Below are positions 5,151 to 9,455 of a stretch of DNA of 22,710 bases, piece after piece. Position 1 is the first letter of the stretch; each line of letters begins with the position of its first letter. The notes under the pieces were generated by a model. That model saw nothing but the letters and a program-made list of their open reading frames with translations. It searched no databases and was not told the origin of the DNA. The stretch is from a virus: positions 1 through 22,710 of the IMG/VR virus record IMGVR_UViG_3300047668_000226. The stretch is one strand, 5' to 3'. Both the position numbers and the translations under genes were made by a program.

Positions 5151-5228
5151 CTATAAATTAAGCAATATAACAACTACTATAATAAGCAGATATATTCCAA
5201 AGACTTGCCATGTGATGTCTTTCTTCAT
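5151..5228 (-). CDS. 25-aa single-pass membrane micro-ORF
   Basis: This frame starts MKKDITWQVF and continues as an uninterrupted hydrophobic segment of about 15 residues (GIYLLIIVVVILLNL) to the stop. Its ATG overlaps the TGA of the phosphoesterase gene as ATGA, so translation by coupling is plausible. It is the last gene before the intergenic switch region and lies next to the lysis-like cluster, so a small holin- or spanin-like role or a regulatory peptide is possible. There is no positive evidence for any of these. Confidence 0.55.
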   Translation of the reverse strand: MKKDITWQVFGIYLLIIVVVILLNL

Positions 5229-5968
5229 AATTCCATTGGCTCTAAAATCGGCAAACGCCCATTGTCTAAAACGACCCCTACTGCTATAATGGGTTTTTTG
5301 GTGAAATTTTTTGCATAGTTTGCAGCATAAGAAAAAACATCAAACGCTGCTCCTAATTGCATAGACCATAAGAGTTCATCTTTATTGGCATGATAGATAA
5401 TTGATGTTTCAGTATGTATATGACCCTGAACAATTTTTGTGTTCCAATTGATAGCCCTATTGATAGCCCCATTTCTGCCTGAGCTACCTGTACCGTGAAC
5501 ATACATAACGCCATCTATATTGAATTTGTCAGCCCACACCCAACCTGGAGTGCCTAAAACTTCGTTAAAGTCTTTTAGCCATACGTTTGATAGTCCTGAA
5601 GCTACTAATTTTCTACTTATAATGGCATCATGATTTCCAATACATACAGTAGCTATTGGCCATTCTTCCCAAAAAGGCTTTATCTGTTCAATAGCTAAAG
5701 ACAGTTCATCACCTGCACTTTTGCCATCAGGACATATCTCATGAAATGAGGAAAATGAATTATCTAACAAATCACCTGTAAAATGAACAGCATTACAATT
5801 CCATTTATCATAGATATACTTGCAGTGGTCTAAAAAGCCAGGCTCAATGAAAGGGGCATGTAAATCTGGTATGATTAACAGCCTCCTCTCATCATTAGCC
5901 CTCATTTTTTCTAGTGCCACAATCTCATGTGGCTTTAATCTAAATCTATTATTTTGCACTATCTGCAA
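5225..5968 (-). CDS. Calcineurin-like metallophosphoesterase
   Basis: The 247-aa protein carries all the family's metal-site blocks: D35-L-H37 in IIPDLHAPF, G65-D-L-L-D69, G111-N-H-D114, H158 in YVHGTG, and G182-H-I-H185. These bind two metal ions, typically Mn or Fe, for phosphomonoester or diester hydrolysis. An N-terminal helix (NNRFRLKPHEIVALEKMRAN) precedes the fold. The substrate cannot be read from sequence; phage members of this superfamily act as protein or nucleic-acid phosphatases. It overlaps the holin candidate upstream by 20 bases and ends as ATGA with the 25-aa micro-ORF. Its place at the end of the late genes rather than among replication genes is notable. Confidence 0.85.
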   Translation of the reverse strand: MQIVQNNRFRLKPHEIVALEKMRANDERRLLIIPDLHAPFIEPGFLDHCKYIYDKWNCNAVHFTGDLLDNSFSSFHEICPDGKSAGDELSLAIEQIKPFWEEWPIATVCIGNHDAIISRKLVASGLSNVWLKDFNEVLGTPGWVWADKFNIDGVMYVHGTGSSGRNGAINRAINWNTKIVQGHIHTETSIIYHANKDELLWSMQLGAAFDVFSYAANYAKNFTKKPIIAVGVVLDNGRLPILEPMEL

Positions 5969-6131
5969 TCCCTTGACCTACCACTAGGGTAAGACAGGCA
6001 TAGAATAAGTTAGTAGCAGTTGCTTCATCAACTCCTAAGTATGTAACTAATATTGGTACTACGATACTACTTATTGCATACCAAAACTTTTTGCTTTTTA
6101 ACATTTGTCCGATTAAAAAATTCTTAAACAT
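5949..6131 (-). CDS. Holin-like small membrane protein
   Basis: The 60-aa protein has two hydrophobic segments, about residues 16-32 (WYAISSIVVPILVTYLG) and 41-56 (NLFYACLTLVVGQGIA), joined by a short acidic turn (VDEATAT), with a basic N-terminus (KNFLIGQMLKSKKF). This hairpin layout and size fit a class II holin. It follows the DUF5675-like gene after 2 bases. No family is certain, and a structural or superinfection-exclusion membrane protein is possible. Confidence 0.6.
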   Translation of the reverse strand: MFKNFLIGQMLKSKKFWYAISSIVVPILVTYLGVDEATATNLFYACLTLVVGQGIADSAK

Positions 6132-6133
6132 AA

Positions 6134-6598
6134 TTATTTATTTTTGATTATTAAATTAATATTTGAGCCGCCCAAATTTATGATTTCTTTCATAAGTAAA
6201 TCCATTGCTAAAGTTGAATTATGAACAATATTGTGTTGGCTTCCCTGACCTACTAGAATGCAACCCCTTGTGTCTTTAGCTGAATTACCACGATGGAATA
6301 ATATAAATGAGCGGTCTTTTACTTCTTGAACTAATAAGTGTAAATATTCTCTTGTTGCTGATTCTCTTGGATATCTTATCCTTACTTTATAACTACCTGT
6401 TGGAATACAGGATATACTTCTTTGATTATCTCTATATGGCAATTCTAAAGTATCACAAAATCTTTCTCCATCAATAAACAATTCCCCAATAGTAGATTCA
6501 TCAGTAAATGTATCTCTAAGGATTAAGAGATTAACGCCCTTGCCCACGATAGGTGTTTTTATCTTGCTTTGAGTGTCTACCCTTACGCTTCTTTCCAT
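6134..6598 (-). CDS. DUF5675-like protein, candidate cell-wall enzyme
   Basis: From the ATG at 6598 the product is 154 aa. The domain spans about residues 22-150: LLILRDTFTDESTIGELF, FCDTLELPYRDN, CIPTGSYKVRIRYP, then LFHRGNSAKDTRGCILVGQG (H102, G104, N105, G112, C113). The H-x-G-N ... G-C-I-L-V-G block looks like the His/Cys motif of L,D-transpeptidases, though the H-to-C spacing is shorter. With holin-like neighbours and no recognisable endolysin in the window, a cell-wall role is a reasonable guess. The start is unsettled: the frame is open to a TTG at 6652, and a GTG at 6547 (137 aa) would start nearest the domain and overlap the 34-aa ORF by only 17 bases. Confidence 0.68.
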   Translation of the reverse strand: MERSVRVDTQSKIKTPIVGKGVNLLILRDTFTDESTIGELFIDGERFCDTLELPYRDNQRSISCIPTGSYKVRIRYPRESATREYLHLLVQEVKDRSFILFHRGNSAKDTRGCILVGQGSQHNIVHNSTLAMDLLMKEIINLGGSNINLIIKNK

Positions 6599-6635
6599 TG
6601 CGCTTAGAAGCGCTCTTAACCACCTTAGAAGCCAT
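6531..6635 (-). CDS. 34-aa highly basic micro-ORF
   Basis: The 34-codon frame begins MASKVVKSASKRNGKKRKGR and ends KNTYRGQGR. About 13 of 34 residues are Lys or Arg. Its ATG immediately follows the TAA of the 52-aa ORF (TAAATGG), so it is well placed for re-initiation. The 'KGRHSK...YRGQGR' ending resembles short basic peptides I associate with phages of marine Flavobacteriia, but I cannot name a family. DNA or RNA binding is likely from charge. It overlaps the DUF5675-like gene in another frame. Confidence 0.5.
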   Translation of the reverse strand: MASKVVKSASKRNGKKRKGRHSKQDKNTYRGQGR

Positions 6636-6794
6636 TTATTTATTCTTTTCAAACTTAATGAATTTGTAAATAGTAAAAACTATTGCAAGTGTCAGCGAAA
6701 CAAGTGTTAAAATCTCGTTACAGTCTGTTATGCTGAAGCCAATAGCTGAGCCGTTAGCTAACCCTACTTGTATTGTGTCTTTTAGATTTGTCAT
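6636..6794 (-). CDS. 52-aa single-pass membrane protein, possible holin component
   Basis: The frame begins MTNLKDTIQVGLANGSAIGF and has one hydrophobic segment at about residues 28-44 (ILTLVSLTLAIVFTIYKFI), ending in a basic tail (KFEKNK). An amphipathic N-terminus, one membrane helix and a charged C-terminus suit a small class III holin or an accessory membrane protein. It is directly followed by the 34-aa basic ORF. It overlaps the 40-aa ORF upstream by 41 bases, so one of the two starts may be wrong, although only one ATG is available here. Confidence 0.55.
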   Translation of the reverse strand: MTNLKDTIQVGLANGSAIGFSITDCNEILTLVSLTLAIVFTIYKFIKFEKNK

Positions 6795-6876
6795 TATTAT
6801 TTAATTTAGGCTTGGTTTCCAAGTAGGATTTTAGCTTAGTTATATTTATTGATTTTGGTTTGTAGTGTTTCTTCAT
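6754..6876 (-). CDS. 40-aa basic micro-ORF
   Basis: This frame begins MKKHYKPKSINITKLKSYLE and ends NTSRVS. It is strongly basic and has no hydrophobic segment. Its ATG overlaps the TAA of the connector-like gene as TAATG, a coupling also used at several undoubted gene junctions in the window. The 41-base overlap with the next ORF counts against it somewhat. Function unknown. Confidence 0.42.
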   Translation of the reverse strand: MKKHYKPKSINITKLKSYLETKPKLNNNDKSKRHNTSRVS

Positions 6877-7439: not shown

Positions 7440-9455
7440 CTAATTTAAAAATCCATTATTTTTCATTGTCTTAGGGGCTTTTGCTACCAAAGGACTATTT
7501 TTTTTTAATGTAAACCCCTCGCTAATTGCTTTTGCTTCAGATATTATCTGCTTACTATTAATATCAGCTTTAGCATTTCTTAGTGATGTTTTGTAAATCT
7601 TACGCTCCCAAAAATGATGACAGTTCCCACCTCCTTTATAAAATTTGTGTTTTGAACAATTATTTAACCATATAGAATAGGTAGCACTATTCCCTTTAGG
7701 CCCCCAACCTTTATTTACAGGCTTCCCTGTTAATTGTAAAATATCCTCCTTACGATATATTTTTTTGGCATTCATCATAAGTCTGCAAAACTCTCTTGTT
7801 TCTCCCTCTTGACTTAATGCAGTATCTTTAGTGTAAAAGTATCGGACTTTGTAGTATTCATTGTAAGATTCATTAACTCCATCTTGATTGCTACTTGCAT
7901 TTGGTCTAGCAGTTCCTGTTGATGCTAGTTCTGTTTTCCCTTCAACTAATTTATTTAATTCAGCTTCAAAGTCAAAATCTTCATGCTCACCATTAACATT
8001 TTCTTCATCTATCAACTCCCAATCTTCTGACATATCCTCACCAAACTCTTCAATAAATCTAGATAGTTCTGTTGCCTCTTCATGCCCCTCACAAGCCATA
8101 TAGCCTGTTGTACCATCTAAATCATGCTCATGGTACCCTACACACCCTAAAGTCTTAGAATGCGCCTCAGCCTCTTCTATGGTGCTAAAAACAGGCTTCC
8201 CATCTACCATACCAACTTTACTAAAATCCTCTCTTACTTCTACATCTACATCTAAAGGTTCATATCCCATTTCTTCACGAATCTCATTAGGTGTTAAAAC
8301 AGCAGCCAAATCTTGATTTGTAAATTTAGTTGTTATTGGTTTAAGCTGAACAAACTGAACAGGCATATCCATATCATTTACCTTGAAGATTTTACTTAAT
8401 ACTTTTAGGATTCTATTTTGGAAATTTACAATTACAGTATTATGATAAAAATTAGCCGCTGAATTTAGTTCATCAGCATTTGAAGAAAACCCATTTCCTG
8501 AATCTAAGCCCATTAATGTTTTACTCGTAATTCTGTGTCCTGATGTGATGTTAGAAACTAGAAGTTCTTGGAGTGCCAAAAATTGCTTATCCAAATCACT
8601 AGGACTTATTGGTGTTATTTCAGGAACTCTTGTTTTATCATCTGAAAAAGTCAAGATGAATTTTCCTGCATTATTTTCTCCTGTAAATTTAGAGGCTAAA
8701 CTTCTTTCTATTTCGTTTCTCTCTTCAGCCGTTGGAATTCCATTTGCAAAAGAAATCATATAGCTGCCTGAAAATCCATTGCTCACATTCTGGAGGTGAA
8801 ATTCTGAAACTTTACCATCTATAAGCGCCCAATTATTACAAGAAACGTAATCAGGAATATAATAAGAGTTCATGTTAGGACTATAAAGCCCTGCATAAAG
8901 TATTTGATTTGCTGAAGTTCTGTCATTAGGATTAAAAGCAGGAACATAATAAGGCTTATTTTGTCTTGTATTTGTCCAATCAGAACTTATATAAAACCCT
9001 GTTGTCTTTCCAAACTCATCAGGCTTTGCACACCTTAATTTAGAAACATCTACATGGTAGACTTCAGCTATTTGTGTTCTATCTTGAGAATATACTATGT
9101 TAAGGGCGAAACCACCTTGTAACTTAAAGTCAAAAGAAGCCTTCACTAATACCTCATGTAGTGTTTCATTGCCATTTGCACTATCTAAAAAGTGTTGTAA
9201 TTTTACTCTAGCTTCTAAATCTCTTTCTTCTTCATCTTCAATTATAAGGTCTTTCCCACTTATCATCTCGCTAGTTGCGTTGATAATAGCAGCAGAAATA
9301 CTACTTGAATAGTAAAGGTCTATAAGGAATTGAGGGTATAAGTTCGCCCAATCCCCATTTGCATCACCATAAGAAATCCAATCCCTACCACGAACCTCTG
9401 CAACAACAGGAGCTGTTGAAGTTTCTAAATTTACACTAATAATTTTATCTTTCAT
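7440..9455 (-). CDS. Portal protein with C-terminal MuF-like extension
   Basis: Residues 1-410 of this 671-aa protein read as a portal: a clip/stem region with DLYYSSSISAAIINATSEMI, a wing with KASFDFKLQGGFALNIVYS, and SGHRITSKTLMGLDSGNGFS. Then comes NEIREEMGYEPL, the usual end of a portal core. Beyond it are two unusual segments: a Cys/His knuckle-like motif (C438, H442, H444, C455, H458) and a C-terminal domain at 535-625 with ETREFCRLMMNAKKIYRKED and C600/H603 ... C612-H-H-F-W, as in MuF-like minor head proteins. An acidic linker (about 460-510) joins them. Portals are usually 400-500 aa, so this looks like a fusion of portal and minor head protein. Confidence 0.75.
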   Translation of the reverse strand: MKDKIISVNLETSTAPVVAEVRGRDWISYGDANGDWANLYPQFLIDLYYSSSISAAIINATSEMISGKDLIIEDEEERDLEARVKLQHFLDSANGNETLHEVLVKASFDFKLQGGFALNIVYSQDRTQIAEVYHVDVSKLRCAKPDEFGKTTGFYISSDWTNTRQNKPYYVPAFNPNDRTSANQILYAGLYSPNMNSYYIPDYVSCNNWALIDGKVSEFHLQNVSNGFSGSYMISFANGIPTAEERNEIERSLASKFTGENNAGKFILTFSDDKTRVPEITPISPSDLDKQFLALQELLVSNITSGHRITSKTLMGLDSGNGFSSNADELNSAANFYHNTVIVNFQNRILKVLSKIFKVNDMDMPVQFVQLKPITTKFTNQDLAAVLTPNEIREEMGYEPLDVDVEVREDFSKVGMVDGKPVFSTIEEAEAHSKTLGCVGYHEHDLDGTTGYMACEGHEEATELSRFIEEFGEDMSEDWELIDEENVNGEHEDFDFEAELNKLVEGKTELASTGTARPNASSNQDGVNESYNEYYKVRYFYTKDTALSQEGETREFCRLMMNAKKIYRKEDILQLTGKPVNKGWGPKGNSATYSIWLNNCSKHKFYKGGGNCHHFWERKIYKTSLRNAKADINSKQIISEAKAISEGFTLKKNSPLVAKAPKTMKNNGFLN

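Follow-up and report, generated by a model that had tools for sequence, protein, structure and literature searches.

Organization of the locus

The window analyzed here is a 22,710-bp stretch (a 22.7-kb fragment) of a virus record from a tailed phage. On its minus strand, the tail, capsid and portal genes are followed by p185 (DUF6712), a 40-aa basic ORF and a 52-aa membrane protein. Next come a 34-aa basic ORF and the DUF5675 ORF that it overlaps, then a 60-aa membrane protein, a metallophosphoesterase and finally genes for recombination (Table 1). The first-pass annotation had described two small hydrophobic proteins, two basic micro-ORFs and a DUF5675-like ORF as a possible lysis module closing the late genes. 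All of these were found, and the group does lie between the portal gene and the metallophosphoesterase. The PF18925 profile confirmed the DUF5675 identity with E 5.6e-31 and a score of 107 bits, where the cut-off is 26.7. The metallophosphoesterase serves as the anchor for the locus search and is outside the lysis module. Upstream, the portal protein was seen to end in a long C-terminal tail, in which residues 423-458 match DUF3721 (E 1.2e-5).

Table 1. Features of the proposed lysis locus and its neighbours in the window (all on the minus strand).
Feature	Position	Remarks
DUF5675 protein, proposed endolysin with predicted L,D-transpeptidase (YkuD-like) fold	6134..6598 (-)	154 aa from ATG 6598
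DUF5675 ORF, alternative longer form	6134-6652 (-)	172 aa from TTG 6652
His102 codon, proposed catalytic histidine (H-x-G-N)	6293..6295 (-)	invariant in 30/30 aligned members
Cys113 codon, proposed catalytic cysteine (G-C-I)	6260..6262 (-)	invariant in 30/30 aligned members
Possible N-terminal extension when the DUF5675 ORF is read from TTG, amphipathic MKRINKWLLRWLRALLSA	6599..6652 (-)	TTG kept in most type-1 relatives
34-aa very basic micro-protein	6531..6635 (-)	ends YRGQGR; net +12; overlaps 5' end of DUF5675 ORF; homologues in type-1 relatives
52-aa one-TM protein, holin-like candidate	6636..6794 (-)	KD19 2.15; phrog_920 holin, E 0.011
60-aa membrane protein, holin-like candidate	5949..6131 (-)	2 nt after DUF5675; phrog_9987 holin, E 5e-4
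40-aa basic micro-protein	6754..6876 (-)	net +10; 41-nt overlap with 52-aa gene; conserved in most relatives
Metallophosphoesterase, conserved downstream neighbour	5225..5968 (-)	Metallophos, E 9e-6; phrog_221, E 6e-38
Portal protein	7440-9455 (-)	DUF3721 match in C-terminal tail

Chance does not account for the ORF content of this region. None of 2000 first-order random sequences of the same region contained an ORF of at least 150 aa. One membrane-like ORF of 40-100 aa was found in 39 of the 2000 and two in none, and the real region has two. The description of these two small proteins as holin-like was upheld in part: hydrophobic segments are present in both, but the holin profile matches are weak. 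Some homologues of the 60-aa protein match holin profiles near E 1e-3. The holin assignment of both proteins is therefore given as suggestive.

No known endolysin was found among the 32 ORFs of the window in a Pfam scan, in agreement with what had been read from the sequence alone. The same holds for a near-complete relative of 28.9 kb, whose 47 ORFs (one boundary ORF being partial) contained no known wall enzyme.

Contents of the slot in related phages

Relatives were collected by searching viral contigs for the metallophosphoesterase. The search was anchored on this gene and not on DUF5675 in order to avoid circularity. Among the 42 loci obtained, the slot upstream of the metallophosphoesterase was occupied 20 times by DUF5675 and 16 times by a Peptidase_M15; the remaining 6 ended before the slot, and both enzymes together were found in none. 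All 36 slot-reaching loci thus have exactly one enzyme there, flanked by the small proteins upstream and by the metallophosphoesterase, and never neither. A scan of ten M15 representatives, that of Nonlabens phage P12024S among them, gave a Peptidase_M15_3 match for every one (E 2e-9 to 7e-23). At the level of whole records, PF08291 was detected in 0/36 DUF5675-bearing records and in 14/14 DUF5675-less ones, and PF18925 in 0/15 M15-bearing records. The mutual exclusion of the two enzymes is strict across these 51 records. Most relatives retain the two small membrane genes as well as the basic ORFs, and the 52-aa and 60-aa genes are kept beside either enzyme.

The boundaries of the exchange are visible in closely related pairs. 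Locus L145 (M15) and locus L017 (DUF5675) are 84.6% identical across 5.4 kb, as far as the stop codon that closes the basic ORF upstream. The slot then differs throughout, and similarity returns near the metallophosphoesterase. In a second pair, L142 (M15) and L024 (DUF5675), most 60-nt windows in the flanks on both sides have an identity of 0.90-1.00, against 0.35-0.52 inside the slot. A 90-row tree of the metallophosphoesterase requires at least seven switches of the enzyme label, at least five of them forced by well-supported branches; some branches of this tree are long, and the count is therefore a guide. Two rows with different enzymes, L115 (M15) and L024 (DUF5675), have zero-length end branches within the same three-row group. 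The long branches suggest that the metallophosphoesterase too may have been exchanged.

The slot was also recognized in cultured phages. In P12024S, an annotated peptidase M15 at the syntenic site is followed by a holin (phrog_3427, E 3e-31) and a metallophosphoesterase. In Flavobacterium phage 11b, a GH19 enzyme occupies the corresponding site upstream of the metallophosphoesterase and ERF genes. Three unrelated types of wall enzyme (DUF5675, M15 and GH19) therefore alternate at one site. The metallophosphoesterase was observed to trail the slot in both of these otherwise divergent phages. DUF5675 thus lies in the lysis slot and is interchangeable there with a known lysin. In comparison with the Peptidase_M15_3 endolysins of flavobacterial phages, the slot, the small-protein neighbours, the metallophosphoesterase and the cassette boundaries are the same in sister phages. 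The proteins themselves are unrelated: M15 has zinc peptidase motifs, whereas DUF5675 has an invariant His and Cys in a predicted beta-rich LD-transpeptidase fold.

Leader segments and basic micro-proteins

Two very basic micro-proteins were observed to alternate upstream of the slot gene, overlapping it (window 6531-6635; sites in L002-L081). Type 1, present in the window, has the YRGQGR ending. Type 2, found in the remaining relatives, is a 42-aa protein (MKKRKLNSTNPKY...KGCKIYKTYYL) and precedes DUF5675 as well as M15. The possibility was considered that the DUF5675 leader is an out-of-frame shadow of the basic ORF. Across the overlap, the DUF5675 frame is open in 25 of 27 type-1 relatives, compared with 43% expected from codon reshuffling, so that the type-1 overlap is open more often than reshuffling predicts.

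In some lineages DUF5675 and M15 have an identical 5' leader (MWLKCVKNLLKKLKAAKS...), a further likeness between DUF5675 and some versions of M15. An M15 gene (L116:984-1442) and the DUF5675 ORF of L017 have an N-terminal leader in common (MWLKCVKNLLKKLKAAKSIKPTIS), as if one delivery segment had been kept and the catalytic domain swapped. L017 and L018 at first seemed to contain M15 as well as DUF5675, but this was judged to be the same kind of signal, namely the N-terminal leader common to those DUF5675 proteins and the M15 query.

Conserved motif and predicted fold

The H-x-G-N ... G-C block noted in the first pass was located exactly at H102 and C113 in ATG-start numbering. In an alignment of 30 sequences from several phage lineages, H102, N105, G112 and C113 are invariant, and all 30 members have the motif H-x-x-N-...-G-C. 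The spacing from His to Cys is 11, and the residue before GC is usually R or E (R-G-C in the window protein). DUF5675 falls below the Pfam cut-off of the YkuD family (PF03734) and lacks its strict motif HXX14-17[S/T]HGC; it is therefore filed as an LD-transpeptidase-fold protein and not as a member of the YkuD family. The window protein had no match to PF03734, and one aligned member reached E 0.014. Of the 30 members, 11 match the Tlde1 domain (PF10908) below its cut-off (best 18.2 bits versus 30.1); the match takes in positions 64-99 of the 120 in the profile and covers the H...GC motif. An hhalign comparison of DUF5675 with an E. coli LdtB/LdtE profile gave no match, the two-sequence profile being too thin for a fair negative. 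Searched against PDB sequences, neither the window protein nor the alignment gave a relevant match.

Structure prediction against YkuD folds, which had been proposed as a check, favoured the relationship. The AlphaFold2 model of the window protein (30 sequences) has a mean pLDDT of 84.8 and a pTM of 0.78, and that of a divergent crAss-like member has a pLDDT of 92.0 and a pTM of 0.86. A plain Foldseek search against the PDB gave no significant match for either model. The fold comparison consists of a re-alignment of Foldseek candidates with VIA-align 2. Since the fold was seen solely after this step, the comparison was run again with the second, divergent member as a safeguard against coincidence. 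For the window model, Pgp2 was at the top (Z 8.8), with Csd6, LdtMt1, Tlde1a and DpaA within 7.3-8.8. The list, which ranges from Z 8.8 to 5.5, includes mycobacterial Ldt enzymes, and two of its 47 titles (4xxt, 1zat) name other peptidoglycan proteins. For the crAss-like model, Pgp2 (Z 10.5), Csd6 (9.0), Tlde1a (8.9) and YkuD (8.8) were followed by LD-transpeptidase-type entries down to 6.0, and unrelated proteins start at 2.2 and below. This gap makes the fold assignment credible. DUF5675 is thus predicted to have an L,D-transpeptidase (YkuD-like) fold, and it may work like a YkuD enzyme.

The best structural matches are the LD-carboxypeptidases Csd6 of Helicobacter pylori and Pgp2 of Campylobacter jejuni (Z 8.6-10.5 over 110-123 residues). 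These are host housekeeping shape enzymes that are larger, have other domains and are only 13-16% identical to DUF5675. The Tlde1 effectors of the T6SS and YkuD are similar in fold and likewise have a His and a Cys, and the His-to-Cys spacing of 10 in Tlde1a (from its published description) is near that of DUF5675. DUF5675 differs from them in scoring below both Pfam cut-offs, in lacking the [S/T]HGC form and in its position in a phage lysis cassette. A rare YkuD class of 10 proteins has been counted among phage lytic proteins in PhaLP; it is defined by cd16913, PF03734 and PF10908, and DUF5675 is unnamed in that entry (PMC8310338). Several crAss-like phage records annotate their DUF5675 relatives as 'transpeptidase' or 'L,D-carboxypeptidase/transpeptidase'. 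The fold resemblance has therefore already been noticed by others, in record annotation alone, and no proposal of a lysis role for these crAss-like proteins was found in the records or papers retrieved.

DUF5675 in other phages

Matches to DUF5675 come from many metagenomic contigs and from annotated phage records, of which there are at least 277. In the PMC literature the family was found in two papers, solely as annotation, and a lysis role is proposed in neither. Candidate lysis genes are nearby in several phages. In a Salinibacter phage, the third gene downstream of DUF5675 strongly matches a holin profile (phrog_3427, E 4e-43). In a Microcystis phage, an Rz-like spanin match (E 0.008) lies downstream. 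In the cultured Cellulophaga phage Ingeline, a 44-aa membrane protein (gp37) precedes DUF5675 (gp38) and a spanin-like protein (gp39) follows. Gp39 has a cysteine-containing hydrophobic stretch at its N-terminus and another near its C-terminus, both seen by eye and below the TM threshold of the script, in the arrangement of a unimolecular spanin. The authors of the Ingeline genome list just a spanin and no endolysin (PMC8776804); gp39 is probably the spanin they meant. No known wall hydrolase besides DUF5675 was found among the 50 proteins of Vibrio phage 1.165.O or the 41 proteins of phi39:1.

Other members are placed differently. The DUF5675 genes of Vibrio phage 424E50-1 and of the crAss-like phage cr10_1 are remote from lysis genes. 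DUF5675-like domains were also observed, as BFVD matches, in very large phage proteins: A0A8S5VTR0 (868 aa), A0A1L7N1E2 (1251 aa, Ralstonia phage RP31) and A0A7H0XAI4 (1210 aa). These are possibly virion-associated wall enzymes. Given such contexts and such large-protein members, not every DUF5675 need be an endolysin.

Proposed role in lysis

The preferred reading is that DUF5675 is an endolysin, a small cysteine peptidase with an LD-transpeptidase fold that would use its thiol to cleave the mDap3-D-Ala4 bond. A probability of about 0.84 is assigned to this reading on the basis of gene context and structural models. The lysis role is proposed because of the slot swap with M15, and in the marine phage studied here DUF5675 very probably represents an unrecognized class of phage endolysin. 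The suggestion in the first-pass annotation that DUF5675 acts on the wall is largely supported by the M15 replacement and the predicted wall-enzyme fold. What would have spoken against it was a canonical endolysin elsewhere in the genome together with an unrelated fold. Neither was found: the window and a near-complete relative yielded no canonical endolysin, M15 was missing from the 36 DUF5675-bearing records, and the models match L,D-transpeptidase and carboxypeptidase structures.

Gram-negative walls are mainly 4-3 cross-linked. The type VI effector Tlde1a cuts between mDap3 and D-Ala4 (PMC9638812). This cut site, taken with that pattern of cross-linking, is the reason for proposing a thiol L,D-peptidase endolysin. 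DUF5675 is encoded where the late genes end and has no recognizable signal peptide; one or two of the adjoining holin-like membrane proteins would give it access to the wall late in infection. His102 would activate Cys113, which would attack the peptide bond that follows the L-centre of meso-diaminopimelate. Water, and not a second stem peptide, would then resolve the acyl-enzyme, as happens in the LD-carboxypeptidases Csd6, Pgp2 and Tlde1a. A cut in the donor stem of a 4-3 cross-link would free the cross-link and weaken the wall.

Enzymes of the YkuD fold can be LD-transpeptidases, LD-carboxypeptidases or LD-endopeptidases (review PMC12729407). Most are transpeptidases and not lytic hydrolases, and the relation of DUF5675 to YkuD is weak at the level of sequence; both points weigh against a lytic role. 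DUF5675 could accordingly be a non-lytic transpeptidase or amino-acid exchanger that re-crosslinks the host wall or edits its stems, the more so as Tlde1a performs exchange as well as carboxypeptidase reactions (PMC9638812). A pure cross-linker, however, would not be expected to replace M15 in the slot without another lysin appearing, and the nearest structural matches are carboxypeptidases, which makes such a role unlikely. A role of DUF5675 in lysis would be no more than auxiliary if the small membrane and basic proteins lysed the cell by themselves. Their persistence beside either enzyme agrees with this, but the presence of one wall enzyme in every slot-reaching locus is hard to square with a dispensable accessory, and the idea is regarded as very improbable.

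DUF5675 might instead belong to the virion and act in entry and not in release. Its gene closely follows that of the portal, where the structural block ends, related domains occur in the very large proteins described above, and the cr10_1 member adjoins a virion structural gene. Within the clade, though, DUF5675 is tiny and free-standing, with small membrane proteins adjoining it, and the interchangeable M15 of P12024S precedes a strong holin match. The Ingeline order of TM protein, DUF5675 and spanin-like protein points the same way, and gp30 of phi39:1 has no proteomics note, compared with about 14 other proteins of that phage that have one. An entry enzyme is considered improbable for these reasons, and release by an endolysin is preferred.

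If DUF5675 is an endolysin, a function would be provided for a Pfam family of this size, and lysis by Ingeline-type phages lacking a recognized endolysin would be accounted for. A cysteine peptidase of the LD-transpeptidase fold, with a bond specificity unusual among endolysins, would join the phage wall enzymes. The natural swap of M15 and DUF5675 constitutes a ready-made genetic experiment, and anchoring on neighbours and inspecting what fills the slot offers a general route to lysis genes. The odds appear even for a broader proposal, in which DUF5675 would form a widespread new catalytic class of metal-independent cysteine L,D-endopeptidases cutting mDap-D-Ala. Its users would be tailed phages of Bacteroidota, Salinibacter, Vibrio and cyanobacteria and, possibly as a single lysis gene, some microviruses. 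DUF5675 genes were observed in ssDNA microvirus genomes of 4.9-6.8 kb (L106:3009-3419, L171:4839-5252) beside five other annotated genes, and the microvirus DUF5675 is a candidate lysis gene.
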